Of a DNA stretch of 25,138 nucleotides, positions 2,044 to 24,949 are shown in pieces. Position 1 is the stretch's first letter. Each line of letters opens with the position of its first letter. The position numbers and the translations under genes were made by a program. The DNA is from a virus. The stretch spans positions 1 through 25,138 of the IMG/VR virus record IMGVR_UViG_3300025141_000685. The stretch is one strand, 5' to 3'. Below the pieces are notes generated by a model. That model ran no database searches and was not told where the DNA came from. It saw only the letters and a program-made list of their open reading frames with translations.

Positions 2044-2056
2044 GTTAATTGGTGAT

Positions 2057-2074: not shown

Positions 2075-2096
2075 TAATCCATACGAGGATATTAAA

Positions 2097-2327
2097 ATGG
2101 CTAAAAAAATGAATTCAATTGAAGCATTCATTGGTGGTGCAGTTGAAACTCCAGAGATGGGGTATGGTCATACTGAAGCGGTTCTTAAGGGATATACCAG
2201 TGGCTCTCAATTGTTTGATGAAAGAGCTATGGATCTTAGGTATGATCAACGAAGAACAAATAACGAAGGTAGAGTTAACGGGCAAATGGTGAGAGGAAGC
2301 GGCGTCATAGCGGGATGGGCGTTCTAA
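2097..2327 (+). CDS. Small hypothetical phage protein, 76 aa
   Basis: The frame opens at 2049, but a start there would translate through the 2057-2074 hairpin. The ATG at 2097 is preceded by GAGG at 2085-2088 with a suitable spacer and gives a product beginning MAKKMNSIEAFIGGAVETPE. The protein is mixed in charge, with a DERAMDLRYDQRRTNNEGR stretch near the middle and a small hydrophobic end (SGVIAGWAF). It has no cysteines and no membrane segment. I do not recognise a family. It lies seven bases before the glycosyltransferase gene and probably shares its transcript. Confidence 0.55.
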   Translation: MAKKMNSIEAFIGGAVETPEMGYGHTEAVLKGYTSGSQLFDERAMDLRYDQRRTNNEGRVNGQMVRGSGVIAGWAF

Positions 2328-2334
2328 AGAAATA

Positions 2335-3420: not shown

Positions 3421-4112
3421 GTACTTATCTAGTTTTGTGTCAAAACATGGCGAGGGATATTGGTATCCCTGGAACAGGGCCAGACGATGTTACATCAACC
3501 TCTCTTTCAGAAGAAGAGAATGCTGTTGTGCGTTATGTGAAGCAAGCTGACCTAGATATACAAAGTAGGTGGTTTAATTGGGATTTCTTGTGGACAGAAG
3601 CTACTATTACCCCAGTTGTTGGAACATCCACATTGACATCTCCAAGTGATGTAGGTAATTGGAAACTGGATGCTATTGTTTTTTCCAAAGCTACAGACTC
3701 TTATCAAGAGCTGGAGTACATGGATTGGGATGATTACAATTTAGAGTATAAGATGGGTGTAGTTGAATCAGGCACACCAGAAGTATTCTCAGTAAAGCCT
3801 GATAATGTTATAGACGTATACCCAACCCCAGATGCAACTACAACTATTTCTGTTGCGTATTGGGCAACTCCTACTGAACTAGCGGCGGATGCAGATGTAT
3901 CAGCTATACCTCCAAGACTGCATAAGATAATAACATCAAGAGCGAAAATATACTATGCTGAAAATGAAGATGCTCCTGAAATTTTATCTGGTGCATTAGC
4001 TGAGTTTGAAGACTTACTAGATAAATTAGAGTCTGATCAGTTACCTGGGCAAAAGAATAGAAGGTTCTCAAGAGCTCAGGATATTACTAATTTTACAGTA
4101 GTTCCGCAATGA
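3417..4112 (+). CDS. Putative head-tail adaptor (tail tubular A-like) protein
   Basis: 231 residues. The ATG at 3417 overlaps the preceding stop (ATGA), implying translational coupling. The N-terminus is helical (LVLCQNMARDIGIPG, then EEENAVVRYVKQADLDIQSRW); a WFNWDFLWTEATI segment near 52-64 leads into a beta-rich middle. The C-terminal third has IPPRLHKIITSRAKIYYAENED and a charged helix ending QLPGQKNRRFS. Helical ends around a beta insert, with this length and position before the nozzle-like genes, match phage adaptor proteins that sit between portal and tail tube. I assign this from architecture and gene order rather than a diagnostic motif. Confidence 0.55.
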   Translation: MSTYLVLCQNMARDIGIPGTGPDDVTSTSLSEEENAVVRYVKQADLDIQSRWFNWDFLWTEATITPVVGTSTLTSPSDVGNWKLDAIVFSKATDSYQELEYMDWDDYNLEYKMGVVESGTPEVFSVKPDNVIDVYPTPDATTTISVAYWATPTELAADADVSAIPPRLHKIITSRAKIYYAENEDAPEILSGALAEFEDLLDKLESDQLPGQKNRRFSRAQDITNFTVVPQ

Positions 4113-7236: not shown

Positions 7237-8298
<1,062 letters not shown>

Positions 8299-8301: not shown

Positions 8302-8751
8302 ATGATTAGAAAAGCAGAGTTCAAGGATGTCTCTGGGATAATGCAAGTTGCCAAGGATGCGCACAAAAAGTCCCTTTCAGATTCAGTACCGATAGACCCA
8401 AAGACCTTAAGAAATAATTTACAGGTTTGCGTTCTATCTCCGGAGCATTTTGTTTTGGTTTTAGAATTGGATGGAAAAATAGAAGGGGCGTTTATTGGTG
8501 TGACGCACCAGCTTTGGTATTCAAAAAAGAAGCAAGCCACTGATTTGTTTTTCTATGTGACGGATGCTGGGACTGGATGGGGAGCCAAGATGATGAGAAG
8601 ATTTATATCATGGTCTAAAGAGAATCGTGGTGTTGGTGAGATCATGTTAGGAATAAGTTCTGGCATAGGTGATCCAGACAGAACAAGAAAACTTTATGAA
8701 AGAATGGGGGCTGTAAAAATTGGAGACAATTTTATTTTGCCACAGGAGTGA
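8302..8751 (+). CDS. GNAT-family acetyltransferase
   Basis: 149 residues, a normal length for a single GNAT domain, which transfers an acetyl group from acetyl-CoA to an amine. It begins MIRKAEFKDVSGIMQVAKDAH, the usual beta1-alpha1 opening of the family. Central strands are HFVLVLELDGKIEGAFIG and TDLFFYVTDAG. The acetyl-CoA loop is reduced to TGWGAKMMRRFISWSKE (about 93-109), where most members have a fuller QxxGxG/A. Motif B is LYERMGAVKIGDNFIL near the end. The gene lies between two virion-protein genes, three bases after one and four before the next, so it should be made late. The substrate is unknown: a virion protein or host target is possible. GNAT genes at this place are common in podovirus-like phages. 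Confidence 0.78.
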   Translation: MIRKAEFKDVSGIMQVAKDAHKKSLSDSVPIDPKTLRNNLQVCVLSPEHFVLVLELDGKIEGAFIGVTHQLWYSKKKQATDLFFYVTDAGTGWGAKMMRRFISWSKENRGVGEIMLGISSGIGDPDRTRKLYERMGAVKIGDNFILPQE

Positions 8752-8754: not shown

Positions 8755-9687
8755 ATGGGAAGCGTAGTAAAATCTATTGGAAAAGTTTTTAAGAAAATCG
8801 GGAAGGGCATAAAGAAGATAGTAAAAAAGATCGGCCCCGCATTGATAATAGCTGCAGCAGTTTATGCTGGGGTTGCGTTTTATGGCGCTTCTATTAATGG
8901 GGTAACAGGGATCGGGTCTTTAGCCCCTAGTAATTTTATGACGGGTCTTGGAAAGATGACCGCCGGAGTTAAGAATTTCTTTATGCCACAGACAGGCGGT
9001 GTTCCCCAAGTTGCAGGTATGGGAACACAAGCTGCAGGGGTTGGCGCTCAAGCTGCTGCAGCCGGTAATGTTATGAGTACTGGAGCAAAAGCTGCCATGA
9101 TTGGCTCTACTCAAGCTGCTAGGGGAGCCACACCCGCAGCCGTTGCTATGTCAACAACCAACGCTATGACTGCTGCTGGTACTGTAATTCCAAGGCTTGC
9201 TAGTTCAATAGCTGGTGGAATGACTACTGGAGATGCGCTTATGTACATGACCAAAATGAACATGCTTTCCGGTGGATTAAAAATGGTTGCTGGGTTTTTT
9301 GATGATTCGGAAAAAAAGCAGATGGAGCATGAGAAAAGTCTGCTTTCAATGAAATATGCTTATGGCAAACCAATGACCGACGAGCAAAAAGCATTTAAAG
9401 AGGCAAATCCGGATTGGATTTCACAGCATCCGGCTATGCAAGGGCAGGATTTATATACATCACCTAATTTGATGCAGTCCCAAACAATGGCAAGTCTTCC
9501 AACTCAAGGAACCACTCCCTCTCCTTATATCCAACAGCAAACAATAGGCCAGCCTACCTTTGGTCGCCAAAAGGCTGGTCAGTATGGACCCAGACCTCAA
9601 AAAACATTTACTGGAAGTAAGCAAGGGCTAATCACGAAAGGATCACCACAGACTTTTGATTCTAATCGACAAAGGAGCATTGCCTGA
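8755..9687 (+). CDS. Putative ejected internal virion protein with a cationic amphipathic N-terminus
   Basis: 310 residues; the ATG follows GGAG (8745-8748) with a six-base spacer. Residues 1-27 contain nine lysines and no acidic residue, with hydrophobic residues at 4, 5, 8, 11, 12, 15, 19, 22 and 26, spaced for an amphipathic helix. A transmembrane-like stretch (about 28-44, ALIIAAAVYAGVAF) follows directly. Residues 65-200 are Gly/Ala/Thr-rich with weak hydrophobic segments; residues about 200-225 are charged (FFDDSEKKQMEHEKSLLSMKYA); the C-terminal 100 are Gln/Pro/Thr-rich and disordered-looking. A small membrane-active protein in this position fits the role of T7 gp14-type ejection proteins that help form the channel for DNA across the cell envelope. 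That is inference; I see no family-specific motif. Its stop overlaps the next start (TGATG). Confidence 0.6.
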   Translation: MGSVVKSIGKVFKKIGKGIKKIVKKIGPALIIAAAVYAGVAFYGASINGVTGIGSLAPSNFMTGLGKMTAGVKNFFMPQTGGVPQVAGMGTQAAGVGAQAAAAGNVMSTGAKAAMIGSTQAARGATPAAVAMSTTNAMTAAGTVIPRLASSIAGGMTTGDALMYMTKMNMLSGGLKMVAGFFDDSEKKQMEHEKSLLSMKYAYGKPMTDEQKAFKEANPDWISQHPAMQGQDLYTSPNLMQSQTMASLPTQGTTPSPYIQQQTIGQPTFGRQKAGQYGPRPQKTFTGSKQGLITKGSPQTFDSNRQRSIA

Positions 9688-10316
9688 TGGCTATCATGAC
9701 TGAGAAGCCCGTAGCAAGAGGGCAGAAAATTCCTGAAGGAAGAACCGTTCCGGATGAATCTTCCGGAGCATTCCTTAATACAGAGTCGGTTCCTGTGGAA
9801 CCTGAAGTAGAGGATCATCTGGCTGAACCTACAAAGGAAGAAAATTCCCAGATTGATATGGCTCTTGGAGCCATTAAGGATTTCATATGGGATGAAGGTT
9901 ATGAAGAGATTGCTGAGAGATTACAAGCAAGCGAAGAGACGCTTCCAAAAGCCATTGGGGAAATGGCTGGGCGCATGGTTAATAGAGAAGTGACGGCCTC
10001 TGACGAAGGTGGAAACTCAATCAACAGAGACCTTCTATACGCAATTGGGGCGGAAGTGGTTAACGAGTTATACAATGTTGCTGAAAAGGAAGGAATCTAC
10101 AAAAAGCAAGATGACAGAAGTGATCAAGAGGCTCAGGGAGAATCTTTGATGTACGCAGCTGAGAAATATGTGGACATGGGTGATGAGCAGATTGATCCAG
10201 CTGGCCCCATGAAACTGGCTGCGAATGCAATTCGAGGGCAGTACCCACAAGAGGAAGAGTTGACTAAGATGGGTATTCCTATGGGAGAAGAGATTACGGA
10301 AACGGAGATGGCTTAA
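9687..10316 (+). CDS. Acidic virion-associated protein, function unknown
   Basis: 209 residues, rich in Glu and Asp. The ATG is in a TGATG overlap and is preceded by AAAGGAG (9671-9677), so it has its own ribosome binding site as well as coupling. Residues 1-55 look disordered. Residues about 56-160 look helical (IDMALGAIKDFIWDEGYEEI, LPKAIGEMAGRMVNRE, INRDLLYAIGAEVVNELYNVAEKEGIY). The C-terminus is acidic (GEEITETEMA). No cysteine, membrane segment or catalytic motif is seen. It lies between ejection-type genes, suggesting an internal virion protein or a chaperone for the basic upstream product. I do not recognise the family. Confidence 0.55.
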   Translation: MAIMTEKPVARGQKIPEGRTVPDESSGAFLNTESVPVEPEVEDHLAEPTKEENSQIDMALGAIKDFIWDEGYEEIAERLQASEETLPKAIGEMAGRMVNREVTASDEGGNSINRDLLYAIGAEVVNELYNVAEKEGIYKKQDDRSDQEAQGESLMYAAEKYVDMGDEQIDPAGPMKLAANAIRGQYPQEEELTKMGIPMGEEITETEMA

Positions 10317-11770
10317 TGGTTAATATTTCAAAAGGGTTGCTGGGATTAGCCGAAGGTGTTGATGCGCAAAGAGACATAGGCGGGTTAATGTTTCAAGAGG
10401 CATCTAGGCAGGAAGGAAGAGCCTATACTGAGGCAATGCGGAAAGAAGCTGAAGAAAGAGCAGACCTTAGACAGATAGCCACAGAAGCAAGGGCAGATGA
10501 AAGATATGCAAAGAGACTTGAAGACGAAGAAAGAATCTGGTTTGAGCGTGCCAAGGAGACTAGAGAAGGTGAGATGAACCTTTATGTCAGACAGTTTGGG
10601 ATGGAATCAGCTAGACAGATAAAAATGTTTAATATGGAAACTATGAGGCAGGTTAGATTGGCTCTCGATAAAGCAACAAGTGATACGCAAAGAGAACTCA
10701 TAAAAACCCAAGGAGACCAACTGGATCAAATATCCAAACAGATAATTGCGCGTCATGAACACAGGCCCGATGATGCGAAATGGAATCCCGATACTAAAGA
10801 ATGGGACGATGGCGGTGCATGGAAGGATGAAGTAAGTGCTTTAGAGAGAAAATATAATAAAGCAGCATCCAATCTAGGACTAACGCCCCTGACAGAGAAG
10901 GTGGATAAGGATAAGTATGGACCACACGCTCTGCAAATCTATGAGAATCTACGCCAAGGACGCGGAGGGGGTAATGAGAATTGGGATGACCTAATGAAGT
11001 CGATAGCTGGAGACAAGGAATCCCCTAGTTATAAAGCTACACTAGAAACAATTGAGGGGGCAATAAATAAATTTGTAAATGACCCCTCATCTGGTTACAG
11101 CCAATTGACTGGAGCAACTAAAAGCGAACTTAGAAAGGCGGTTCTTGAATTATTTACAGTTGAAGGAAAGGGGCATGTGGCTCGTTCTGATGATCCCGGT
11201 GATGCTGGCGCTCCCCCGCCAGCCGATGTCAGTCAAGCTTTATTTGGAACGACCTTCACTGATGAGTCTCAACAAGACTTTGTGGATCAGATAAATGTAG
11301 ATAATATATCTATAGATGATATAGGTTTATACGAAAGGGAATTCGCAAGGTATCAGGATCACGGGCATCCTCAACTTCAAGCAGCCAGAGTTCGTGACCC
11401 TTCTGTTTTGTTACCTCTGCTTAGAAAAGAAAGGGCTAATATGCTTGGGGAACAAAAGGCTGCTGCAGGATATGGTATGCCGTGGACAGAAGATAAAATT
11501 AAGAGACTGGCTAAAGTAGAAGAGATTATTAAAAAACTTGAATCGCTGGACCCTTCTCTTATTGACCGTTATGAGCGTGACCCATACGGTAACATTCTCA
11601 GAGAACGGAGTAATCTTGACAATGCGGGAGCATCTGTATCCCCACAAGGAGGAATGTTAAACAGACCGGGGATGATTCAAATGTTTGAGTCAGGTCCGGG
11701 GCTTGACATGTCAGCAGAAGCTGTAAGGGCTAGAACAAAGGGGATGGCTAGACCAGAGGAACTCGCTTAA
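10316..11770 (+). CDS. Coiled-coil internal virion protein, function unknown
   Basis: 484 residues, coupled to its neighbours by TAATG overlaps at both ends. Residues about 15-145 form a long, heavily charged helical region (many Arg, Glu, Gln, Ala; for example RKEAEERADLRQIATEARAD and RLEDEERIWFERAKETREGE), probably a coiled coil. A central part (about 145-300) is mixed and includes GPHALQIYENLRQGRGGGNEN. Residues about 290-330 hold a Pro/Ala/Asp linker; the C-terminus has KIKRLAKVEEIIKKLESLDP and a final GMLNRPGMIQMFESGPGLDM segment. The layout resembles large internal proteins of podovirus-like phages encoded just before the giant polyvalent protein. No enzymatic motif found. Confidence 0.58.
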   Translation: MVNISKGLLGLAEGVDAQRDIGGLMFQEASRQEGRAYTEAMRKEAEERADLRQIATEARADERYAKRLEDEERIWFERAKETREGEMNLYVRQFGMESARQIKMFNMETMRQVRLALDKATSDTQRELIKTQGDQLDQISKQIIARHEHRPDDAKWNPDTKEWDDGGAWKDEVSALERKYNKAASNLGLTPLTEKVDKDKYGPHALQIYENLRQGRGGGNENWDDLMKSIAGDKESPSYKATLETIEGAINKFVNDPSSGYSQLTGATKSELRKAVLELFTVEGKGHVARSDDPGDAGAPPPADVSQALFGTTFTDESQQDFVDQINVDNISIDDIGLYEREFARYQDHGHPQLQAARVRDPSVLLPLLRKERANMLGEQKAAAGYGMPWTEDKIKRLAKVEEIIKKLESLDPSLIDRYERDPYGNILRERSNLDNAGASVSPQGGMLNRPGMIQMFESGPGLDMSAEAVRARTKGMARPEELA

Positions 11771-14700
11771 TGGCTCTGTTGGGACCACCACCCAAAACAA
11801 ATCCTTACGCAGCTAAGGAGGTTATGATTGGACCATCCCCTTATTACGGGGCTACTCCGCAAGAACCTGCCAAACCAACAGGCTCCCTCACGGGAGACTT
11901 AGCCCTTTCATGGGAGATTGGTTGGCAGCAGATGCGCGGTGTTCCCTACTGGTTAAAAGGGGTAGGTGCATCTCTTCTTGAAAAAGCTGGGTTCGAGGAC
12001 AAAGCTAGAGAGCAAAGGATAGAGACCTATAATCTTGTCCGTGATATGCAAGAGGATATAGGTGCTTTATCAGCCCTGTATACCGGACCCCATAGTTGGT
12101 CAGAAGCACAGAAGGAAGGAACAATTGGTTCTTATGCCTTGTGGGGGATCAATGAGGCTATCAAGCAGATTCCTAATCTAGCTACTATGGCTCTTGGTTC
12201 TTTGGCTACTATGGGTGTTGGGACTTTAGCTTTTGCGGGAGCAAAGACGGGTGCTAGGTTTGCTGTGGCAAGAATGCTTCAGAAAATGCCCGGAGCAAAG
12301 TATACATTACCAACCGGCGAGGTTGTTAGCAGCGCTGGACGAGGAAGTGCAACCGTTGGCGTAGCCTTGAGCAGCGCTCTTCTGAATACTGGTGAAATCT
12401 ACTCTAGCGCTTTGTTGGAAACCGGAGAAAATAACCCTGCTATAACTGGGCTTTCTGGATTGCTGGCTGGTACTCTAGATATGTGGCCCGGTTCTAAAAT
12501 TATACGCAACATGGGCAAAGGCCAAGACTTTGGCAGCTACATAGCGAACAAACTTCTGCGTGATAAAAAATGGAGAAGCCGTGCGTACCGCGCCCTTGAA
12601 CTAGGCGTAACAGAGTCGTTCGTTGAGGACTGGCAAACCCTCATAGAAGCGATGACAGTAAATTACCTTAATGATAATCTCTTAGCCAGTGACTATGTAA
12701 CAAAAGCTTACGGGATCGTTCCCCTCACGGCTGGTCAGGTTTCTGAGAGAATGGAAGCTAGGGCAGCAGGTGCTTTGCTAGGTACACTTCTTGGTCCATT
12801 CGGGAGAGTGGGTCCGGGTTTTAAATCCCCGCCACCAGACGCTAAGATAGAAGTAGAGGATGTCCGTGATATAGATGAAGGGGTTGCAGTTAAGGAGGTT
12901 CTTGAGAGAGAGGCCACTAGACCATATGGATCAACAACAGCCCCTATAAGAGAGGTTACTGCTCGTGGTTTACCAGCAGCTACTGTTACCGATCCGGGTC
13001 GCTTTGCTGGTGTTGCTGACGTAGCGAGAACTTTAGAAGATGAGGCAGTAGAAAAAAGAAAGGTTGGGATGCCAGCCGGGGATGCATTTGATCTGTCTGA
13101 TCCCACCACGATGCAAGCTGCAGAGGAACTTGGGCTAGACCTAGATGAACTGGCTCTTCTATCACCAAAGAAGAGAGCAAGAAAATTTGAAAGAGCGCAG
13201 CTACATGCTGACGCACAAAGAAAAGCAGCGCAAACGGCTGCTCAAGTTAAAGAAAGAATTACCGGCGAAAAAGCCGGACCTTTATCCACTGGTGAAACGG
13301 CTTCTGTTGCTGGCGGAATAATTAATAGTGCCACCGTAGATTCCCCGCTCCCTGATTCTGAAGCTTACAAACGACAGAAGGATATAGAGACTGCTACCGC
13401 TCTGGTTCTAAGACTTGTTAACCAGAAAAAAGAGATCACCGAAGCTGCTGAGTCTAAGCAGTTTTGGAAGGATGTCATGGTTGAAGACTATCTGGCTGCT
13501 GCTGAACTGGCGAAAGATGCTAAGAAGATAGGGGTTGCAGCATTAAGAGCGCTCCTGAAAGGAAAGGGCCGTGACGTAAAGAGGGATAAGAACGGACAGC
13601 CTGTTATAAAAGATGGTCAGACACAACAGGAAGACCTCACTCTTGAAGACCTTGGTGTTGCTCCGCAGGAGAAAGGAGAAAAGGCCGAAGCATTTAGGCA
13701 GCGTCTCGATGAGGGAATAAGAGCCTATATCGGAGAAGATGTTTTTGCAGACCTAGCATTTGATGAGGCTATTGATGAAAAGGCCAGTCGTGAGTTAGCG
13801 AAGGAACACGCCAGACTCCGCAAGCTTTTGAGTAGCGTAAGGGCTATCAACATGGGTCTCAATATAGACCCGGAAATAAGGAGCGTTTTACAATCTGTTT
13901 TTGAACAAGGCCGGGACAGTTATATTCCGCGTAACTTGCAGGACGATGGAGTCAGGAAGGCTCTGGAAGCTGCTATCCAGAAAAGGATAGAGGATAACAT
14001 TGCTGCACAGAAGGAAGAGGTACAGAGACAAACAGCAAGAGCAGTGACTGGTTTTATAGAAGCGCAAAAGAAACCCAGTGTAGAAAAGAGATATGGTATT
14101 GAGCAGCAACGGAAAAGAAGGAAGGACGAAACAGAAGCACAATACCAAGAGCGTCTAATACAAATTGAAGCATCAAGCCTAGAGAGACAAGCTGAACTTA
14201 GAGTAATAAGAGCTAAGGACGAAGAAGCGCATCTTGTAGGAAGAGAGCGTAAAAAAGTTGGAGCCAGACCCAGTTATAGAAAGCTAGAGGCGAGAGCAAC
14301 GGGCGAAACAGTCGAAGATGAGGTTTTAATTGCTGGGGAGCCTACTACTGTAGAGAGGAAGGTTGATGTAGCAGTTGACATAAAGCCAGAACGCGAGGGC
14401 ATTGTTACTCTTGCTCCGGAAGGAGCGCGTCCAGTTGACGAGAGAAGCTACGAGAACTTTGCCACCCTGCAGAAATTCTGGGAACTTGTTGGAATGCGCA
14501 CGAAACAGCGCGGAGAAGAAGTAGAGTTTAAATGGACTACTGAAGACGTTAAAAGACTAAAGAAAATCTTTCCAGAAGGAGACGATGTATACAATGTAGA
14601 GTACTTCTCTAATCGGGAAATGGCTGGTGACAAGCTTGTCAAGGAACTTATTGAAGAAATAAAGGCCAGAAGGAAAAAGGCTGGACTTCCCAACGTAAAG

Positions 14701-17700
14701 ATTAAATACGTTGCCCCTAATGGAAATTACGTTACCGAAGAAAAGCCAGACCCAGCAGTTGATATCTGGGAACTTGAAAGAGACCCATCGACAGGGGATG
14801 TTCTTTTATTTAATGAGGAAGGCGAAATTGTAGGGTCAAGGAATTCTAGCACTATAAGTACCCGAACAAGGTTGCCCGGAACCGCAAGAGCAGTTCGCAG
14901 AAAAGCAAAGAAACATATGGGGGCGGGGACAGAAGGGCAGGGAGAACAGGTCCAGCTTCCTGAGAGGTTAATAGGATACGATAGCAAGGACCAACTGTTG
15001 ATGTCCCAGTTTGTGGACGACGAGAGAAACTATGCCTTATCATCAAGAGTAAACTCTCTTAAAAGAGAATACGGCTCTGAGAATGTTCCGTTTGTGGAGT
15101 TGTCTAAACTCGCTGACCAATTTAACATTAGCGTTGGAGTTCTTGGTATTGAAAGAACTAAAACCAGAACCAGATTCACGCAGTTAAACGCGCAGGGAGA
15201 TGTTACTGGTATAGAAGAAGTGTGGTTTCAATTTCCTGAAAGTACAAAGTATTCTATGGGCAGGGGAAAGAACAAGGTAGAATTCAACATCTCTGGTGAA
15301 GAACTAGAACACTCCTTTATCTCTTTTGATTTTCTTGCCAATCGTTACAGTCAATTGGTTAATGTTATGAACGTATCACCTGATAGAGCGTGGCGCATAG
15401 CATTGGGCCAAACTATGAGAGGGTTAAAAGAGGACTCAGCGAATAGATACGAGCAAATTCTTTTGGATGAAGGTAATGCAGACGCTGCTTATCTTAAAGC
15501 CCAGCAAGTTGCTGGGAAGACATTAAATAAGACAGAGCAGAAACTTGTTGCCAGACTGGATAAGATTCTGCAAGATGAGGGGGCAATCTGGACAGTAAAC
15601 AAAGAAAGAGAGATAGAGAAGTTTGCTAATTTAAACAGGAATTATATAACTAATCCGGGTGACAAGAAGTACAGAATAAAACTTCCCAAGGGAGCGGAAA
15701 AGATTTCCTCTGCGGACATTCTGAAGAGCATTTCGGAGAGTGTCAGCAAGGGTACAAAGGATCAGCCTTCATGGGGCTATTCAGAAACAGAACAGAATTT
15801 CCTTTCCCGCATGTCTACTCCCCCCTCACCAAGAGAGATAACCAGAGACACGAAGGTTAAGGTAAGTGCGGAAGCGTGGCCTATAGTATTTCAGCAAATG
15901 GTTCGTAAAGAAGGAACACCCTTGAGAGAGACGGTAGGGGCTATCATAGGTCTTCAAGAGGACTTGAAGTACATAAAGAAAGGAGAGGGTAGTGTAGAGC
16001 AACTAAATGATCGCAAAGCTCTGATACAGAAACAGATTAACAACTTGCAGAGAATACTCAATAGGCAAGTTGGGGATATTTTAGATGCTTCATACAATGT
16101 GGTTCGCCGGAAGGGAGATAGTTTTGTTTTAGAACACATCCCTCGTGGCCCTTCTCTTGAGATTCATAAAGACATGTTGATGGTTACCCATTATTCTGAA
16201 ACCGCTATCAATAGAATACAAGCCACTGAAGAAAAAATTCTCAGGTCTCCGGACCCGGAACAAGCGCAAGTCAAGATAGCAAAGTATGAGAAAATAAGCC
16301 TCAAGAAAAAAGGTCGTTCATTAAATCAAGAAGAAATAGATAAAATTATTAAAGGGGTCACCAAAACTAAGGCTGACTGGAAGAGACACGAAGAAACCAT
16401 TGAGTATATGGCTGGACCAATATACGAAGATATCACATTAGGTGATAGACCAGAGTGGCGTACTATGTCTGGCAAGCGTATGGAGTTAGGCAAGAAGGCC
16501 AGAAATAAAGTTGTTAAGGAAATAGAAAAAGAACTTAAGAAGGTTGATGCTTCCTACAAGGCGGATACTAAAAGGATGCGCTGGACAGAAGAAAAGTATG
16601 AGGCCAGAGTTCAAGAAATACTAGATAGCAGGAGATGGAGAATCTTAGAAGCGTGGGGAGAACTCTCTTCCCCTATGCAGCCGATGTCAGTCAGTGAGGA
16701 TATTCAAAAGCAAATAAATTCAGGAGAAATCTCATATGAGCAGGGCTGGAGAAAATACGTCAAGAGATTCAAGCAAAGGGAGAGGACCGATCCAGAAAGT
16801 GTAAGAAGAGGAAGGACACCGCTCGAATATGCAGAGGATGAAGATGTCAAGGACATACGCACCCTCATGAACGCTAGTGGAGAGTGGATGGATGCAGCAA
16901 TGAATTCAGAACGCATCCGTGAAGTTGCTAAATCTCTGCAATCAGGTGATAGAGAATTTCTCCGGTCTATCAAACATCAAGCCACACTGAAGAAGGCTCC
17001 CATAGAAGGAATCCTGTCTCGCCTTCAGGATAGGTACAATAATCTTATCGTTTCTAGGATGAAGCGAGGGGAAAAACTGGGAGAGAAAGTAGAAAGCTGG
17101 CTAATTTATGAAGGCGAAGGAACTCCCAAGGCTTGGGCTGAGGGAAAATATTGGGAGTTTGTTAGAAGTGAAGAAGAGAGGGAACTTCCAGACAAGCCTA
17201 GATATCTTGGCAGGTTTGTAAAGGCTGCCCCCATTGGAGTATGGAAGAATGCATACGGTGTTGTTCTCGATAAGATTAAAATTACTTATCGCCCCAATGG
17301 AGAGACTGAAGATATAACCAAAACTGTTTACCAAGTTACCAATCCTTTTGACGTTGATGATCAAACATGGTTCTTTGAGACCAGAAAAGAAGCTATTGAT
17401 GCGTTTGGAAAGGAAGCATCTTATCAGAAAATGTTAGGTCGTAAGGCGCTTCCGTCTCCCAAAGAATTTGGAGGAATGGCAGCTGCTAGAGAAATTCGCA
17501 GACTCAATGAAGAAGCAGATATAAGGCTAGATGAATTAGATAAGGAAAAGGGAATAGCATTCCGAGAGAGAGAGAAAGAGAGAGCGGATGCATTAAAAGA
17601 TGCCGAAAAGAAGAAAGGGGCTAAATTAAATTTAAGAGATAGAAAGAGAGTTCTACGACCTCTTCCCCAGTTGAATCCCAACCTCACTCAAGAAGAAAAA

Positions 17701-20700
17701 GATGCTGCTAAGGTAACCCCGCAGCAGAGAGCAGCAATAACAAAGAAACATACTGTTAAATTCCCTGTCTCTCAAGCAATCATTACCCGAAGGGCTTTTG
17801 GAGATGTTCCTCTAAAGCATATAAGACAGGCCGAAAGGGAAAAGGGAGGATCGTTAACGAGGGATGAACTTAATATACTCAGAGACCAGCTGTATAGAGG
17901 AAGGCCGATAGCTGAACCTGCCGGGAGACCTGTTGGTCAGGAAACAGGGAGCGCTCCTATAACTACACCGCAAGTTATGGAGGATGCCAGAAAAAAGAAA
18001 CGACAGGCAACAACTGTAACTGTTATTGCGCCCGGACAAAAAGGAGCAGGAAGAAAGAGGCCACTCACTGTAGTAGAAACATATGAAGAAGATATAGATT
18101 TCTCAGAGATTCCAACTGATCTGGTGGGGGCGGAAAGGTACAGATGGTTAATAGGGAAGGAAAAGGTAAGAATCAGCGATCTCGAAAAAGAACTACAGGC
18201 AATAGAATCTAGAAAAGAAAAGCTACCTTCCAGATGGACAAAGAAAAGAAAGGAGCAGGAAGAGAAAGCTTCTGAGATACGAGATAAGATAGCTTTCAAA
18301 AATAGAGTTCTTAAAAGGCTCGATGAAATGATTCGAGTGGCTGCTCCCAGTAGAAAAGAATACAAAGCAACTGATATCTATCCTGCAGTTCCGCCTGAGC
18401 AAATAAGAGCGGAGATCATACGAAGAGAAGAGGCAAAGAGAGAGGGGGAGAAATTAACAGCAGCCGACTTAAGAGAGGTTGACAAAATAATAAAGGAACT
18501 AACTCCGGAAGAGATAGACGATATCAGGCTGGATATTAGAGAGAGAGTGGTTGCTGAGATAGGGGTAGAGGCTAGGACTGATGAGCAAATAGAGGCAGAG
18601 ATTGAAAGGTTAAAGAAGAGGCTTAAAGCATTGGGGGTTAAGCCCCCCAGTTACGCTTATGCCGGTAGGCCGGAGACGATTCATGCTAGGGATGTTCGCA
18701 TCCGAGAAGCTGTAGAGGCGGAGCAAGAAACCAAAGATTTTGTTGCTTCTCTAGAACCTATAGAAAATAAAATTAGATTGGCTTCAAATAAGGTTAAATC
18801 CATAGAAAGTAAGGTAGAAGAGATGCCTTCTAGATGGGTAAAGAAAAGAGCAGCCTTAAACAAAACAGCAGACCCATTCCGAAAAACAGCAGAGAAGCAA
18901 GAAACAATATTAAATCAAAAAAAGGCAGAACTAACCGAACACAGGGAAGAAAGGTTTGATGCTCTTTTAGAAGCGGAGCAGAAAGCGGAGCAAAAAAAAC
19001 AGAGGACAAGAATAACTAAAGGAAGAAGAGCGCTGGAACGTAAGAGAGCGCTTAAGGGTAAAGCGAAGGCAGCAGAAACAAAGAAGCAGAATGAAATTGA
19101 CGAAACAAACAAGAAAATAGAAGACCTTCAGGAGTCCCTTGGAACCCCGCGCAGAGTTTCTACCCCAGTAGATGTGAAGTACTCCCTCGTTCTGGATGGT
19201 GAGTACTCTGAAGACGGTGGTTTGCACGTTCTGTTTGGTGGGAAGGAAGGTGGTAGTTCTGCCAGAGATGATGTGGTAGACCGACTTAATGAAGCTTTCG
19301 GCAGACAGATTTTTCAGTTCGTTAGGGTGGTTCAGACTCAGGCTGAATTACCATTAGACTTCAGGATGAACCGAGAAGCCTACGAAAGCCCGATCAGAGG
19401 AGTTTCTTGGAACAGGCAGATATGGCTTGTTGCAGACAATATGTCACTGGACAGGGTTGTCCCTGTTGCCTTGCATGAGATCGGTGGTCATGGAATGATG
19501 TCTATTACAGGCAAGAAGTTCTATGACAGGCTGATGAAACAGATTGCAGTTCTCGTCAACACTGACGATAGCATTCGTGCTATTTACGAGCGGGTCAAGG
19601 AAGAAACTTCTGAAAGAGAAGGGGTACAAGTAGCCACTGACAAAGACGGGCTTGCCGTATTTGAAGGAGGGCTAGACAAGACTGCACCCATCGCAGGTAC
19701 ACATGTGAGTTCAAACATAGAGTCCTTGAGCGATGGATTTAAGATAAGACGCTTTAAAGGTGATCCTGTTGGTGTCTCTATTGCTAGAATCAAAAGTGAG
19801 GAGATGTCATCACCTACGTTAGCAGAGCCGGGTGGAACTCCCGGAGTTGTGTCTGTGATTGTAAGCGGTCGTGGGATGGACTACATGGACCCGGCTGACA
19901 GGAAGATTATAGATGACTTGCAAGAGGAGAGCAGAAAGAAGTCAGCTGCTGCAATAGCTAGAGGAGCAGAGCCGGGGACTCCCGGTACAATGGTTTCCGC
20001 AATACCTGCGCTGCTTGAGCGTGGTGTTGATTGGGTTAATGGCTGGAACGGTATTGGGGAAGACAGTGAACTTCATGTCATAAACCCAAGCATGATTGAA
20101 ATAGTGGGTAGAGGGAAGAAGGTAACAGCGGTAAATGAAGCCGTTGTTCTCGAAGAGACTATGGCTTACATTATTGAAAGAGAGGCTATAGCCAACAACC
20201 CATTCTGGAGAGCGGTAGTAGATGCTGTCCTTTACGGTCTCGCTCGTATCAAGCTATGGGTTTCCCCCACCAGAGTTGGCGCTGCTGACATTCTGGTCTT
20301 TGCTAAAGCTACTGCTAGGAAACATGCTCAACTTGCAGCGAGTGGGGATGCAATGTTTACAGCTAACTTCTTGGGAACCTACCTCTACTCTGGCGACTTT
20401 GGACACAACTCCTCAGAGCATGACGCTAAAGCTAGCTTGGTTAATAAGATGGGTGGTGATATCGGTGATATCCATATGGACACAGGCTTTGTAAGCGATT
20501 GGTTTGATCGAGATGTCCCTCCGGCGGGAAGGCTCTGGGAGAACTTCATAGTCTTTAGAGATGTCACCGCTCCCAAAGAGGGGGAAGCAATCTTAAAACG
20601 GCCTCTCATACATTACAGAGTAAGGAAGATTGGAAAGAAAAGGTTTCAGGTATATATCGCTCCTGAGTTTATAAAGTGGATGAAAGATTATTTCAATATC

Positions 20701-23460
20701 TTTACACTGCTGGAGGAGTCAACCCGGATACGCGGAGGAACTGTAACCGATGACAACTCTCCTTCCCTTTTTCATGGAGCCTACAAGAATAAAGTAAATG
20801 ACTGGCGAGATAGATTCCATAAGGAGTACGTTGAGCCACTCGCTGATTACATGTACGAGTATAGAAATGAGTTTGATGGAGATGACTTGTTCTGGTATCT
20901 GTACACGGCTCATGCTCCCCACAGAAACAGGCTTGGAGCAAAGAAAGCAAAAGAAGCACAAGTGCCGAATGCATCTGGCTTGTTTGACACGAAGGAACAA
21001 GCCCAAGCATACAGGGATGAAAACCCAGAGGCGGGTGAAGAAGCTTACATGTCAGTCGAGGCTGAACTTGAAAAACTCCATGCCAAGGTCGGGGATGAGA
21101 CAAGTGACGCTTGGAAGCACCTAGAAATAGCTGCTCAAAAGGTTTACATGATCAATCAATACAATCTTAATAACCAACTAGAGGCTGGTCTTCTGGACTT
21201 CAAGACCATGACTCCTGAGCAGTTAGAAGCTTACAATGATGATGGCTACAAAGATACCTATGTCCCCCTGCGTGGTCAGGAAAGGATAGTTGCTGACCAG
21301 TTTTTTGAACAGCCTCTTGGTCCCGGCAAGTTAGGGGTAAGTGGCGTTGAATCCAAGAGAGCGCGGGGTCGTCAGAGTATCCCAGAAAACATATGGGCTT
21401 GGTCAGTTATGCAGACGGATCATGAGATAGACAGAATCGAAAAAAATCTAGTGGTCATGTCATTTGCAAATCTTATCTGGGACAATGAGGAAAACTATAA
21501 AGATTTTGCAATGGTTGTTCCCTTGGAGGATTACAAAAAGCATAAAGACCCCTCTGGGAAATTGTTTCTAGACCTTATACCAAAACAGCAAACTGATCCT
21601 GATCATAACATACACTTTAAGATTAATGGAGAGGAGTGGGTTATCCTAGTCAAGGACAAGAGACTGGGGCAAGCGTTTAATCGCTCTAACATGACAGACT
21701 CAGGAGTATTCCTGCAGTTAACATCCCAACTCAATAGATACTTTAGCGCAATTCACACCTCTATAAACCCTGAGTTCGTTCTTAGAAACTTTACGGTTGA
21801 CTTGCAGACTGCATTAGGAAACTTGGAGGGTCTAAAGGAAACAGTAGCTGAGTTCAAAGACATAGAAGGTTTGAGCAGAGCAGTCTTGAAAAGCGTCAAG
21901 CCAGCAGGTATAGGCTTGAAACATTTTTTGAGGGACGGCAGGACAGACACTGAGTATTCTGCGGAAGCATCTGAATTTTCTCAGCATGGTGGCAGGATTA
22001 ATTTCTTTGCTTTTAAAGACGTAAGAGATTTCGAGAAATCATTCAATGACCACGTTAAAGATACGAAAGTTGGCGGGGCAAAGAGATTTTTTAAGAAGAC
22101 CCTTGATTTTATAAGTGACTACAACGCTGTTGTGGAGAACACGATGCGTCTTGCTGTTTACCACCACGCTAAGAAAGCTTTTCTAGCAGCTGGAATGACT
22201 GAGGGACAGGCTATTCGCAAGGCTGTTCACATTGCTCAGAACTTAACAGTTAACTTTTCGCAGAAAGGCGAGAAGGGTGCTGCGCTGAACGCTCTCTATC
22301 TATTCTTCAACGCTTCAGTTCAGGGTACTGCTCGTTTGTTTCAGGCTCTCTTCAGTAGGCCCAGAGGAAAGACAGGCTTCACCCGTGTGCAGAAGTTGGC
22401 TGGCTCTATCATGCTCTTTGGTTTTGCTCAGGGAATTCTTAATGCAGTTTTGGCTGGTGATGATGAGGATGGGATTAATCGGTATAGCCAGATTGACTTG
22501 AGATCGAGAAGTCGTCAGGCCCATATCTACCTTCCGGGGTTTGACACCTTCTTTAAGATTCCGCTTCCATATGGTTACAATGTCTTCCATGTAATGGGAG
22601 ATACATTAGCAGCCCTTATGATGGGTCATACCAATCCGGGTCGAGCAACCATGCATCTTATGTCATCGTCTGCTGAATCATTCATGCCTTTCTCATTTGG
22701 AAGCAGTGATAACTTATTCAGGGCTACGCTGTCGGCAGTCTCCCCGACCTTTGCTGATCCTCTTGTAGACCTCGCTATGAACGAGAGTTACTTTGGTCAG
22801 CCTATATACAAAGACCCGGTATGGGGTTCTTCTGACCCACCATCAGAGAGATTCTGGGGGTCAACTGGCCCCATCACTAAAGGAATATCCCGTGGATTGA
22901 ATGCCCTCTCTGGAGGAAACCAGATCAAGCCGGGCTTAATAAGCATTCCTCCAGACATCTTTGAGTTCATCTGGGAGACAGCAGCCGGTGGTGCTGGCAG
23001 GTTTGTGGAAAGGACAACAGATTTAGTGTTGTCAATCGGACCCGGAAAGATAACGCACCCGACTGGGGAGATTAAATGGAACAAGGTTCCGTTCGCCAGA
23101 AGATTCCTGTTTGACGAGAAGGCAAGCAAGAATAGGTATAGATATGATAAGTTTGCTGTGTATGAGAAGTTAATCTCGACTGCCGTGGGTATGGAGAAGG
23201 GAATGAAAGAAGTGTACGGAACAGGGAAAGAGTACACGAACTTTAAAGAGAGCGACGATTATAAATTGTATAAGTTAGCAGACTTTAGAAAAAATATTGT
23301 CGGCAGCATTACAAAACTTCAGAAAGAAAGAAACAAGTTGCGCCGGAACAGAATACTAAGGTCAGATATAATAGATGATAGGGTTGACCGCCTTGAGGAA
23401 AAGATGATGGAGTTGAGAACAAAACTTATTAACAAGATGGATGAAACTTTTGACAGATGA
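11770..23460 (+). CDS. Giant polyvalent virion protein (3,896 aa) with metallopeptidase-like, ART-like and LPD38-like domains
   Basis: A single uninterrupted frame with TAATG start overlap, AGAGGA (11754-11759) upstream and ATGA stop overlap. Domains in order: N-terminal region with hydrophobic Gly/Ala helices (about 132-160, 195-245) and GVTESFVEDWQTLIE (about 283-297); about 370-2460 a very long, Lys/Glu/Arg-rich helical part, with two IESxxExxPSRWxKKR motifs exactly 200 residues apart (2145 and 2345); about 2467-2830 a metallopeptidase-like domain with HEIGGHG at 2569-2575 and EETMAYIIERE from 2795; within it about 2640-2780 an ART-like segment; about 3330-3560 LPD38-like motifs NPEFVLRNFTVD (3333-3344), ENTMRLA (3456-3462), NFSQKGEKG (3495-3503) and LYLFFNASVQGTARL. 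The C-terminal 100 residues are a charged coiled coil. Large LPD38 proteins are believed to be packaged and injected with phage DNA to act on the host. I saw no Walker A, helicase or methylase motif, unlike many relatives. Confidence 0.8.
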   Translation: MALLGPPPKTNPYAAKEVMIGPSPYYGATPQEPAKPTGSLTGDLALSWEIGWQQMRGVPYWLKGVGASLLEKAGFEDKAREQRIETYNLVRDMQEDIGALSALYTGPHSWSEAQKEGTIGSYALWGINEAIKQIPNLATMALGSLATMGVGTLAFAGAKTGARFAVARMLQKMPGAKYTLPTGEVVSSAGRGSATVGVALSSALLNTGEIYSSALLETGENNPAITGLSGLLAGTLDMWPGSKIIRNMGKGQDFGSYIANKLLRDKKWRSRAYRALELGVTESFVEDWQTLIEAMTVNYLNDNLLASDYVTKAYGIVPLTAGQVSERMEARAAGALLGTLLGPFGRVGPGFKSPPPDAKIEVEDVRDIDEGVAVKEVLEREATRPYGSTTAPIREVTARGLPAATVTDPGRFAGVADVARTLEDEAVEKRKVGMPAGDAFDLSDPTTMQAAEELGLDLDELALLSPKKRARKFERAQLHADAQRKAAQTAAQVKERITGEKAGPLSTGETASVAGGIINSATVDSPLPDSEAYKRQKDIETATALVLRLVNQKKEITEAAESKQFWKDVMVEDYLAAAELAKDAKKIGVAALRALLKGKGRDVKRDKNGQPVIKDGQTQQEDLTLEDLGVAPQEKGEKAEAFRQRLDEGIRAYIGEDVFADLAFDEAIDEKASRELAKEHARLRKLLSSVRAINMGLNIDPEIRSVLQSVFEQGRDSYIPRNLQDDGVRKALEAAIQKRIEDNIAAQKEEVQRQTARAVTGFIEAQKKPSVEKRYGIEQQRKRRKDETEAQYQERLIQIEASSLERQAELRVIRAKDEEAHLVGRERKKVGARPSYRKLEARATGETVEDEVLIAGEPTTVERKVDVAVDIKPEREGIVTLAPEGARPVDERSYENFATLQKFWELVGMRTKQRGEEVEFKWTTEDVKRLKKIFPEGDDVYNVEYFSNREMAGDKLVKELIEEIKARRKKAGLPNVKIKYVAPNGNYVTEEKPDPAVDIWELERDPSTGDVLLFNEEGEIVGSRNSSTISTRTRLPGTARAVRRKAKKHMGAGTEGQGEQVQLPERLIGYDSKDQLLMSQFVDDERNYALSSRVNSLKREYGSENVPFVELSKLADQFNISVGVLGIERTKTRTRFTQLNAQGDVTGIEEVWFQFPESTKYSMGRGKNKVEFNISGEELEHSFISFDFLANRYSQLVNVMNVSPDRAWRIALGQTMRGLKEDSANRYEQILLDEGNADAAYLKAQQVAGKTLNKTEQKLVARLDKILQDEGAIWTVNKEREIEKFANLNRNYITNPGDKKYRIKLPKGAEKISSADILKSISESVSKGTKDQPSWGYSETEQNFLSRMSTPPSPREITRDTKVKVSAEAWPIVFQQMVRKEGTPLRETVGAIIGLQEDLKYIKKGEGSVEQLNDRKALIQKQINNLQRILNRQVGDILDASYNVVRRKGDSFVLEHIPRGPSLEIHKDMLMVTHYSETAINRIQATEEKILRSPDPEQAQVKIAKYEKISLKKKGRSLNQEEIDKIIKGVTKTKADWKRHEETIEYMAGPIYEDITLGDRPEWRTMSGKRMELGKKARNKVVKEIEKELKKVDASYKADTKRMRWTEEKYEARVQEILDSRRWRILEAWGELSSPMQPMSVSEDIQKQINSGEISYEQGWRKYVKRFKQRERTDPESVRRGRTPLEYAEDEDVKDIRTLMNASGEWMDAAMNSERIREVAKSLQSGDREFLRSIKHQATLKKAPIEGILSRLQDRYNNLIVSRMKRGEKLGEKVESWLIYEGEGTPKAWAEGKYWEFVRSEEERELPDKPRYLGRFVKAAPIGVWKNAYGVVLDKIKITYRPNGETEDITKTVYQVTNPFDVDDQTWFFETRKEAIDAFGKEASYQKMLGRKALPSPKEFGGMAAAREIRRLNEEADIRLDELDKEKGIAFREREKERADALKDAEKKKGAKLNLRDRKRVLRPLPQLNPNLTQEEKDAAKVTPQQRAAITKKHTVKFPVSQAIITRRAFGDVPLKHIRQAEREKGGSLTRDELNILRDQLYRGRPIAEPAGRPVGQETGSAPITTPQVMEDARKKKRQATTVTVIAPGQKGAGRKRPLTVVETYEEDIDFSEIPTDLVGAERYRWLIGKEKVRISDLEKELQAIESRKEKLPSRWTKKRKEQEEKASEIRDKIAFKNRVLKRLDEMIRVAAPSRKEYKATDIYPAVPPEQIRAEIIRREEAKREGEKLTAADLREVDKIIKELTPEEIDDIRLDIRERVVAEIGVEARTDEQIEAEIERLKKRLKALGVKPPSYAYAGRPETIHARDVRIREAVEAEQETKDFVASLEPIENKIRLASNKVKSIESKVEEMPSRWVKKRAALNKTADPFRKTAEKQETILNQKKAELTEHREERFDALLEAEQKAEQKKQRTRITKGRRALERKRALKGKAKAAETKKQNEIDETNKKIEDLQESLGTPRRVSTPVDVKYSLVLDGEYSEDGGLHVLFGGKEGGSSARDDVVDRLNEAFGRQIFQFVRVVQTQAELPLDFRMNREAYESPIRGVSWNRQIWLVADNMSLDRVVPVALHEIGGHGMMSITGKKFYDRLMKQIAVLVNTDDSIRAIYERVKEETSEREGVQVATDKDGLAVFEGGLDKTAPIAGTHVSSNIESLSDGFKIRRFKGDPVGVSIARIKSEEMSSPTLAEPGGTPGVVSVIVSGRGMDYMDPADRKIIDDLQEESRKKSAAAIARGAEPGTPGTMVSAIPALLERGVDWVNGWNGIGEDSELHVINPSMIEIVGRGKKVTAVNEAVVLEETMAYIIEREAIANNPFWRAVVDAVLYGLARIKLWVSPTRVGAADILVFAKATARKHAQLAASGDAMFTANFLGTYLYSGDFGHNSSEHDAKASLVNKMGGDIGDIHMDTGFVSDWFDRDVPPAGRLWENFIVFRDVTAPKEGEAILKRPLIHYRVRKIGKKRFQVYIAPEFIKWMKDYFNIFTLLEESTRIRGGTVTDDNSPSLFHGAYKNKVNDWRDRFHKEYVEPLADYMYEYRNEFDGDDLFWYLYTAHAPHRNRLGAKKAKEAQVPNASGLFDTKEQAQAYRDENPEAGEEAYMSVEAELEKLHAKVGDETSDAWKHLEIAAQKVYMINQYNLNNQLEAGLLDFKTMTPEQLEAYNDDGYKDTYVPLRGQERIVADQFFEQPLGPGKLGVSGVESKRARGRQSIPENIWAWSVMQTDHEIDRIEKNLVVMSFANLIWDNEENYKDFAMVVPLEDYKKHKDPSGKLFLDLIPKQQTDPDHNIHFKINGEEWVILVKDKRLGQAFNRSNMTDSGVFLQLTSQLNRYFSAIHTSINPEFVLRNFTVDLQTALGNLEGLKETVAEFKDIEGLSRAVLKSVKPAGIGLKHFLRDGRTDTEYSAEASEFSQHGGRINFFAFKDVRDFEKSFNDHVKDTKVGGAKRFFKKTLDFISDYNAVVENTMRLAVYHHAKKAFLAAGMTEGQAIRKAVHIAQNLTVNFSQKGEKGAALNALYLFFNASVQGTARLFQALFSRPRGKTGFTRVQKLAGSIMLFGFAQGILNAVLAGDDEDGINRYSQIDLRSRSRQAHIYLPGFDTFFKIPLPYGYNVFHVMGDTLAALMMGHTNPGRATMHLMSSSAESFMPFSFGSSDNLFRATLSAVSPTFADPLVDLAMNESYFGQPIYKDPVWGSSDPPSERFWGSTGPITKGISRGLNALSGGNQIKPGLISIPPDIFEFIWETAAGGAGRFVERTTDLVLSIGPGKITHPTGEIKWNKVPFARRFLFDEKASKNRYRYDKFAVYEKLISTAVGMEKGMKEVYGTGKEYTNFKESDDYKLYKLADFRKNIVGSITKLQKERNKLRRNRILRSDIIDDRVDRLEEKMMELRTKLINKMDETFDR
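18154..18909 (+). repeat. Pair of related ~50-residue helical repeats inside the giant protein
   Basis: Residues about 2129-2180 and 2329-2380 share IES-x3-E-x-x-P-S-R-W-x-K-K-R, with the isoleucines at 2145 and 2345. Both sit between charged helices, so PSRW is probably the turn of a helical hairpin. The DNA around the motif is still partly alike (agatgg followed by aaagaaaaga in both). Confidence 0.7.
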
Positions 23461-23687
23461 AAAAACCCCGCCTTGTCACGGTAGAGTGGCGAGACATACT
23501 AGGCACTTCGGGATGGGAGAAGCCTGATGAAGTTAATCCGCCAGTGATAACAACGATAGGATATCTAATTCAGAAGGATAAAGATGTGGTTAAGGTAGCC
23601 CACACTAAAGATGAGAAGGGTGCTTGGTCTGGAATTACAGCCTTCCCCAGAGGCTGCGTGAAAAGTATTACGAATATTTCTTCATGA
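23457..23687 (+). CDS. Small conserved phage protein, 76 aa, unknown function
   Basis: The ATG overlaps the giant gene's stop (ATGA). The protein has TVEWRDILGTSGWE near the N-terminus, PPVITTIGYLIQKDKDVVKVAHTKDEKG in the middle and ITAFPRGCVKSI near the end. I recognise this pattern from small proteins of many unrelated phages, whose role is not known to me. It is beta-rich, soluble and has one cysteine. It is the last gene of the + strand operon, and its final 20 bases overlap the end of the convergent phosphoesterase gene. Confidence 0.72.
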   Translation: MKKPRLVTVEWRDILGTSGWEKPDEVNPPVITTIGYLIQKDKDVVKVAHTKDEKGAWSGITAFPRGCVKSITNISS

Positions 23688-24453: not shown

Positions 24454-24645
24454 CTAATCCCTATAACCCGGAATACCACCGCCATCTCTACCGCATCCTT
24501 CTATGTCGCAGTTAGGCCAGTTAGGACAGCTAAGATGGTAAATTCTCAGCCTTTCTTTCCGCTCCTCCTTGGTTTCATTTTTGTAGCAATCCCAGTATCT
24601 TGGGGGAACCCCGTTCCATTTCTGTTTCTTTTTCACAGCAGTCAT
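24454..24645 (-). CDS. Small cysteine-containing hypothetical protein, 63 aa
   Basis: The frame can be extended upstream to 24696, but that would run deep into the neighbouring gene. The ATG at 24645, one base after that gene's stop, is more likely and gives MTAVKKKQKWNGVPPRYWDC. The N-terminal half is basic (Lys, Arg). The C-terminal half has H37, C40, C46 and C51 (HLSCPNWPNCDIEGC) plus C20, a spacing that could bind zinc but matches no family I know. It ends in a glycine-rich tail. It lies between the zinc-finger protein and the phosphoesterase and is probably co-transcribed with both. Confidence 0.55.
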   Translation of the reverse strand: MTAVKKKQKWNGVPPRYWDCYKNETKEERKERLRIYHLSCPNWPNCDIEGCGRDGGGIPGYRD

Positions 24646-24646
24646 C

Positions 24647-24949
24647 TTAATCTCTAAACCCGACCTCATCATCAAAGTCAATACCATAACGACCACCTAA
24701 TTCTGGATCAATTCCGTAATTGTTTATCTCCCAATCATCATCTTCATCCCCCTCCCGACTCTCTTTTTCATAGTAGTCATCCCCGAACTCTTTAAAAAAT
24801 TTGGCATCAACTCTAGGCTCAAGCGCGGTGTAACTACAGTCAAAGTTTCGGCAATGGTAGTATTGTCTTAGCCCACCATCTCTTTTGGAGAATTTTCCGC
24901 GAGTCTGTAACATCTTACCGTGATTAAATCTGCAATATGGGTTACTCAT
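24647..24949 (-). CDS. Ogr/Delta-like zinc-finger protein, 100 aa
   Basis: The ATG overlaps the preceding reductase stop (ATGA). Residues 6-38 contain C6-x3-H10 and C33-x4-C38 (HCRNFDCSYT), with R17 between. The C-x22-C-x4-C part matches the Ogr/Delta zinc-binding domain of phage late-gene activators (whose first pair is normally C-x2-C; here C-x3-H). The C-terminal half (about 48-100) is very acidic (KESREGDEDDDWEI). Ogr-like proteins contact RNA polymerase and switch on late genes, so this could be a regulator. The first pair is non-standard and the acidic tail is extra, so it may instead be a general zinc-ribbon protein. Confidence 0.6.
   Translation of the reverse strand: MSNPYCRFNHGKMLQTRGKFSKRDGGLRQYYHCRNFDCSYTALEPRVDAKFFKEFGDDYYEKESREGDEDDDWEINNYGIDPELGGRYGIDFDDEVGFRD

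Follow-up and report, generated by a model that had tools for sequence, protein, structure and literature searches.

A cysteine-free LPD38 protein of 3,896 residues in the P22 gp16 slot of a marine phage, probably injected through a short tail

Among virus proteins, those that phages inject act in the host earliest; they are also hard to spot by homology. Some phage-type polyvalent proteins carry zincin-like MPTases, and LPD38 is a domain of this type of protein (Iyer et al. 2017, PMC5512222). Bcep22-like phages carry DarB-like LPD38 giants (JC1 gp69, BcepIL02 gp70) with lytic transglycosylase, SNF2 helicase and DNA methylase modules, and the JC1 giant was detected in purified virions by mass spectrometry, with 51 unique peptides (PMC9144972). 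In the E. coli phage PTXU04 (genus Xuquatrovirus), gp25 (2,197 aa) has been reported to be essential by CRISPRi-ART, and its expression is toxic or disturbs infection (PMC11879866). The vRNAP of phage N4 (gp50, 3,500 aa) is ejected, and has a zincin-type motif, HEXXH, followed by a helical C-terminal part of about 1.1 thousand residues (PMC12633501). That N4-like vRNAPs contain no cysteine was noted earlier (PMC2784036, PMC3715699, PMC4837373), and their passage through tail and periplasm was proposed as the reason (PMC2784036, PMC3715699).

The stretch of DNA analysed here (the window) spans the whole of an IMG/VR record, 25,138 bases, and one gene, that of a giant protein, takes up 46.5% of it (Table 1). 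Since the record is complete as it stands, this is a fraction of the contig and not of the phage genome; contigs of relatives extend to 59.5 kb. We propose that the giant is a virion-packaged, ejected cargo and ejectosome protein of a short-tailed phage, lying in the slot of P22 gp16, and give this reading a probability of about 0.75. Its packaging and ejection are supported indirectly but strongly by the slot, the exclusion of cysteine and the virion mass spectrometry of JC1.

Table 1. Features of the window and of the giant protein (aa, residues of the giant; positions in nt).
Feature	Position	Strand	Evidence or remark
Major capsid protein	478-1443		upstream of giant
SU10-type adaptor	3417-4112		upstream of giant
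353-aa protein, no Cys; possibly tail, uncertain member of ejection set	7237..8298	+	wider family 44 Cys / 25,452 aa
310-aa cysteine-free protein, probable member of ejection set	8755..9687	+	family 0 Cys / 10,807 aa
209-aa cysteine-free protein, synteny anchor	9687..10316	+	family 0 Cys / 10,373 aa
484-aa cysteine-free protein, P22 gp20 position	10316..11770	+	abuts giant; family 0 Cys / 5,006 aa
Giant ORF, 3,896 aa, zero cysteines	11770..23460	+	open frame without internal stop
N-terminal domain, aa 1-400	11770..12969	+	in both C-terminal types of giant (BLASTP; type A against type B by HHalign, E 7.3e-39, probability 100)
Hydrophobic segment I, aa 137-155	12178..12234	+	hydropathy scan
Variable charged middle, aa 401-2440; proposed cargo region	12970..19089	+	comparison with relatives; dN/dS
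Zincin-like module, first part, aa 2441-2617	19090..19620	+	type A against type B by HHalign, E 7.5e-22
HEIGGH motif (HEXXXH class), aa 2569-2574	19474-19491	+	conserved among slot giants
Mobile in-frame cassette, aa 2620-2782 (163 aa)	19627..20114	+	between HEXXXH helix and EE helix
EE of EETMAY motif, aa 2795-2796	20152..20157	+	conserved EExxA/G motif
Conserved C-terminal block (type A), aa 2789-3896	20134..23457	+	marine type A giants 33-61% identical
Hydrophobic segment II, aa 3543-3561	22396..22452	+	hydropathy scan; immediately precedes LPD38
LPD38 domain, aa 3570-3758	22477..23043	+	Pfam PF18857 E 1.9e-33; genome search E 2.0e-37
76-aa conserved gene 3' of giant	23457..23687	+	phrog_25889; sharp 3' limit of variability

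The giant is encoded among late virion genes (capsid protein, SU10-type adaptor and others), which supports the phage-type polyvalent layout suggested in an earlier note on this DNA. A search with the capsid protein recovered hundreds of marine contigs at 82-100% identity, as well as three isolates at about 52%, namely Vibrio phage 219E44-1 and the E. coli phages Bas95 and PTXU04. All three carry homologues of the synteny anchor (V219_0018, Bas95_0026 and PTXU04_00023; E 7e-36 to 2e-30). In 219E44-1 and Bas95 the anchor is followed by a gp20 homologue (phrog_2534/917) and then by a gp16 homologue, which matches the DNA transfer protein family phrog_770 at E 4e-127 and 2e-40, respectively; P22 gp16 itself, used as a positive control, matches the same family. 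In the window and in PTXU04 the order is anchor, one gene, LPD38 giant. The giant is therefore last in the series of anchor, gp20-type and gp16-type genes, where other phages have an established ejection protein. Marine relatives were traced through the metallophosphoesterase gene downstream, and each one whose contig reaches the slot carries a large ORF there. The one defined slot thus alternates between P22 gp16 homologues of 600-730 aa and unrelated giants of 2,200-3,900 aa.

Position is common to the giant and gp16, whereas kinship is undetectable by sequence: the giant has no phrog_770 match, and the N- and C-terminal profiles of type A giants (see below) reach an HHalign probability of 0.2% against P22 gp16, a protein of 609 aa that is likewise cysteine-free but has neither zincin motif nor LPD38. 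In HHalign comparisons no giant resembled P22 gp16, T7 gp16 or the C-terminal domain of the N4 vRNAP. Homology of the type A C-terminal block to the latter domain found no support, either in HHalign (probability 1.6%) or in a structure search.

Much of what the earlier note had claimed about the giant itself was borne out; it mentioned neither the absence of cysteine nor the insert at aa 2620-2782. Its 11.7-kb frame is uninterrupted, and a second contig (L002) encodes the last 2,064 residues (1833-3896) identically; these two contigs differ at 14 of 7,190 aligned bases, none of them inside the giant, so that dN/dS is uninformative for this pair. The N-terminus is hydrophobic as described, with low charge (18%) and hydrophobic segment I, and in other giants a hydrophobic peak recurs at roughly aa 110-310. 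The predicted long charged stretch spans aa ~450-2550, where charge is mostly 25-47%. Within it, aa 1061-1888 are semi-conserved among the nearest relatives, while for aa 1889-2440 no relatives were detectable in comparison with related giants. The LPD38-like C-terminus is also real (116.6 bits against a curated cut-off of 27), but lies slightly downstream of the residues 3300-3600 first proposed. LPD38 is the one domain that Pfam recognises in the giant; NCBIfam gave no matches, and Pfam, NCBIfam and PHROGs together offered no functional assignment beyond it. In PHROGs, aa 2963-3893 match phrog_14770, phrog_616 and phrog_10691, families of proteins of 2.8-3.9 thousand residues, and it is this C-terminal block with LPD38 that is shared with the Bcep22-like giants.

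The modules of those giants were not found in the window giant. Helicase and methylase profiles, correctly presumed missing in the earlier note, are absent both from it and from 24 related giants, so that the SNF2 helicase and adenine methylase combination of DarB-like proteins was not recovered. Nor is there an RNA polymerase profile in Pfam, PHROGs or NCBIfam, in contrast to N4 gp50. Profiles identified no effector domain in the ~2,000-residue middle, the sole candidate being the mobile cassette described below. Compared with phage-type polyvalent proteins, the giant thus has LPD38 by profile and a zincin by motif and conservation, with no second identified enzymatic domain. The two structure models are of low confidence (mean pLDDT 52 and 59) and neither has a PDB match at E < 0.001, so that the proposed zincin fold and the functions suggested below for the two ends rest on conservation. 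In PTXU04 gp25, an isolate counterpart in this slot (two genes past the anchor), LPD38 (E 1.6e-38), hydrophobic peaks near both ends, the HEXXXH motif (HEIIVH) and zero cysteines are all found; it is, however, 1,700 residues shorter, lacks the cassette, and its N-terminal domain shows no kinship to that of the giant detectable by HHalign.

By their C-terminal sequences the slot giants fall into two BLAST clusters: type A, with 40 partly overlapping sequences (including the window and the near-identical L002) plus PTXU04, and type B, with 21 sequences, whose phosphoesterases are 66-75% identical to that of the window. As several loci come from overlapping contigs, these locus counts are not counts of independent phages. 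LPD38 was matched in 14 of 14 type A members covering the region in the scanned alignment, whereas none of 10 scanned type B members matched any Pfam family. HHalign nevertheless relates the two types in the N-terminal domain (E 7e-39) and the zincin (E 7.5e-22), and weakly in the C-terminal block (E 4.7e-6, probability 86%). Common to the giants are the N-terminal domain, the zincin motif and a C-terminal block of ~1,100 residues, and between them lies a hypervariable, mosaic middle. A first search of relatives with 82-97% identical capsid proteins found no C-terminal homologue, partly through contigs that end early, but replacement of whole genes between close relatives was rejected because types A and B are related at both ends; divergence plus mosaicism, not unrelated genes, is indicated.

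The variability has a sharp 3' boundary. DNA identity of 90-92% to three related contigs (L113, L115 and L120) starts exactly at the stop codon of the giant (23458). By contrast, over the C-terminal 950 residues the identity between their giants and that of the window is no more than 35-40%. Among related giants, the middle gives dN/dS values of 0.28-0.47, as against 0.13-0.19 for zincin and C-terminal block together; both ranges come from pairs with sufficient synonymous divergence (two very close pairs gave higher but unreliable values), and the middle is under purifying selection in most pairs. Recombination within the gene is indicated by a type B pair (L108/L275), in which dS rises from 0.09 in the N-terminal domain to 1.05 in the middle and 1.9 in the C-terminal part.

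The zincin-like motif proposed in the earlier note is real and conserved among slot giants, but of the HEXXXH and not the HEXXH class, and so also differs from that of N4 gp50. H-E-x-x-x-H followed by EExxA/G is present in every type A and type B giant covering the region and in PTXU04 gp25, and because the pair recurs in this way HEIGGH is not a chance occurrence. Conservation of the HEXXXH helix and of a downstream glutamate is the pattern of a zincin-like MPTase of this class, with the EE pair as the probable third zinc ligand. A model of the region (mean pLDDT 52) has no PDB match, and no Pfam MPTase profile matches it. Kinship to M49 (DPP III), suggested by the HEXXGH-like motif, was rejected, as no solved structure was matched by sequence.

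The second histidine is separated from the EE motif by 53-90 residues in other giants but by 226 in the window giant, and this longer spacing is due to an in-frame cassette of 163 aa that is absent from the other slot proteins compared. At the DNA level the cassette is 92.4% identical over 488 bp to nt 6004-6491 of another contig (L279), and the DNA on both sides is unrelated. There it lies at aa ~1783-1944 of an otherwise unrelated giant of 3,698 residues, ~350 residues before the zincin motif. Two further viral scans returned only this same second occurrence. In an all-against-all comparison, one other short stretch of high identity was seen in pairs that otherwise match little, and it lies in the related N-terminal domain. 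Judged by sequence, the cassette is the clearest domain exchange seen among the giants, and it would represent a recently exchanged piece of cargo; an insert that is itself separately mobile sets the giant apart from phage-type polyvalent proteins.

Two identities for the cassette were considered. An intein or other self-splicing element was dismissed by inspection, as there is no cysteine and no C-terminal His-Asn, and the L279 copy is distant from the zincin motif. An ADP-ribosyltransferase was a by-eye pattern, with no Pfam match and no notable sequence match in the PDB; the structure model over the cassette is unreliable. In L279 a YHVT...-type domain that looks ADP-ribosyltransferase-like by eye is located just before the cassette (nt ~5620-6000, + strand).

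The exchanged cassette bears on an alternative in which the giant serves solely as a channel across the envelope, like a greatly enlarged gp16, and brings no effector cargo; its middle would be a variable spacer matched to the architecture of the host envelope. The gp16 slot, the hydrophobic segments near both ends and the lack of an effector in profile scans all fit this view, but it is unlikely given the size of the giants, 2,300-3,900 aa, beside the gp16 homologues of the same slot, the presence of a zincin motif and the swapping of a foreign domain between giants; other LPD38 proteins, moreover, carry helicase/methylase or lysozyme modules. An injected protein that also delivers cargo agrees better with these features.

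Cysteine composition is the strongest new evidence for the injected-protein reading. From the average of 1.17% in ten neighbouring genes of the window, ~46 cysteines would be expected in the giant, and there are none. In its reading frame the codons TGT and TGC are missing altogether, while the other two frames hold 74 and 196 of them. The three genes before the giant also encode no cysteine, and their families together have 0 in 26,186 aa (not dereplicated), while families with ordinary contents include the capsid protein (0.68%), the acetyltransferase (0.87%), the gene at 2335 (3.0%) and the phosphoesterase (2.4%). A non-redundant set of 57 slot proteins, to which PTXU04 gp25 and the two gp16-type proteins belong, has a single cysteine in 103,853 aa; it lies in an out-of-frame tail just past ambiguous bases. 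Eighteen LPD38 loci in bacterial genome contigs gave 11 cysteines in 36,679 stop-to-stop residues. Two of these are internal, and the other nine lie upstream of a plausible start, within residues 1-24.

Among the controls, N4 gp50, gp51 and gp52, P22 gp7, gp20 and gp16, and T7 gp15 and gp16 have no cysteine and T7 gp14 has one; BcepIL02 gp70 (4,667 aa), a relative of the JC1 giant, and the giant of Vibrio phage 1.205.O (3,130 aa) have none. In the cargo of crAss001 cysteine is scarce, though not missing (7 in 7,478 aa). Injected proteins of myoviruses, which have contractile tails, are not depleted (P1 DarB, 9 in 2,255 residues; T4 Alt, 3 in 682). The SNF2-methylase module is cysteine-free in six phage giants (8,646 aa). 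Its homologues in three plasmid proteins have 13 cysteines in 3,743 aa, a Bordetella phage with a myovirus annotation has 2 in 973, and a Streptococcus phage 1 in 1,269. By composition alone, the whole operon would be marked as ejected; the absence of cysteine by itself is non-specific, being seen in some scaffold and tail proteins too. A 3,590-aa ORF with LPD38-type similarity (nt 10001-10477 of contig L300) and no internal cysteine was seen in a Brevibacillus contig. Brevibacillus is Gram-positive and without a classical periplasm, so that a reason based on the periplasm alone does not fit. As the case of the N4-like vRNAPs has already been published, all that is claimed as new is that the exclusion also covers LPD38 giants and the other genes of the operon; no earlier report of this was found among the open-licence papers searched.

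These counts also bear on two further alternatives. The giant could be an internal head protein, packaged for assembly or DNA condensation, that stays in the particle or is passively released, and its variation would then show how little a long helical filler is constrained in structure. A long, charged, helical middle with relaxed dN/dS would suit such a role, and some scaffold proteins are cysteine-free as well. We consider it improbable, however, as the slot belongs to an ejected protein, the zincin motif is conserved, the middle is under purifying selection in most pairs, and cysteine exclusion follows ejection and not packaging, the packaged DarB and Alt having kept their cysteines. That the absence of cysteine has nothing to do with ejection, and stems from helical-protein bias, codon bias or oxidation in the free virion, is very improbable: low cysteine in some other virion proteins and the incomplete depletion in crAss001 agree with it, but TGT and TGC are common in the other two frames, the helicase-methylase module is cysteine-free in phage giants and not in plasmid relatives, and packaged myovirus proteins retain cysteine.

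The giants, then, combine one slot, conserved end domains, a zincin motif and complete cysteine exclusion with a variable, mosaic middle, and that of the window is probably an injected protein whose middle changes fast. It would be packaged together with the DNA, as the JC1 giant is found in virions (PMC9144972), and may leave by the short tail at least partly unfolded, as suggested by N4 (PMC12633501). It would then cross the oxidising periplasm with no cysteines for DsbA to cross-link, and this passage may be why cysteine is excluded. By analogy with T7 gp16 (PMC8954989), the hydrophobic segments seen near both ends by hydropathy could insert into the membrane. The two ends, that is the LPD38 block and the N-terminal domain, would act as a chassis with which the giant is packaged, leaves the virion and enters the membrane. 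Its middle may be replaceable cargo that it delivers, and the putative zincin may cut the giant once it is assembled or delivered.

More tentatively, and with slightly less than even confidence, the gp16 slot may be viewed as an exchange platform, where a cysteine-free ejection chassis takes a fast-evolving, swappable payload of effectors through the oxidising periplasm, cassettes move between otherwise unrelated giants, and cysteine exclusion is a general mark of short-tail ejection. The chassis of such a platform might consist of an N-terminal membrane domain, the HEXXXH zincin and an LPD38 or LPD38-like C-terminal block, a composition we hold no more firmly. If the periplasm does drive the exclusion, this could help to explain how proteins of >3,000 residues cross the envelope, and cysteine exclusion would provide a sequence-readable filter for injected effectors in metagenomic phages.

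Some neighbouring genes deserve mention. A GNAT acetyltransferase gene (phrog_1249; 8302-8751, +), which itself encodes cysteine, adjoins the cysteine-free ejection genes, and in JC1 a RimL-like acetyltransferase gene (gp63) lies upstream of the LPD38 giant gp69 (PMC9144972). A conserved gene between those of the capsid protein and the adaptor (2335-3420, +; 10 cysteines in 361 residues, family 3.0%) has only a sub-threshold match to glycosyltransferase-9. In relative G006 (contig L107, 804-3632, +) the protein encoded directly 5' of the giant, where the window has one of 484 aa, is cysteine-free and of 943 aa, with no Pfam matches. Downstream, two small cysteine-rich ORFs (5% and 3% Cys; 24454-24949, -) show a weak Ogr/Delta zinc-finger match, and the ~490 bp holding both are missing at the equivalent place in L002, the giant being otherwise identical. 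The next gene past the phosphoesterase in L002 (7184-9067, -) encodes a ribonucleotide reductase of the B12-dependent class II (Pfam E 2e-7).
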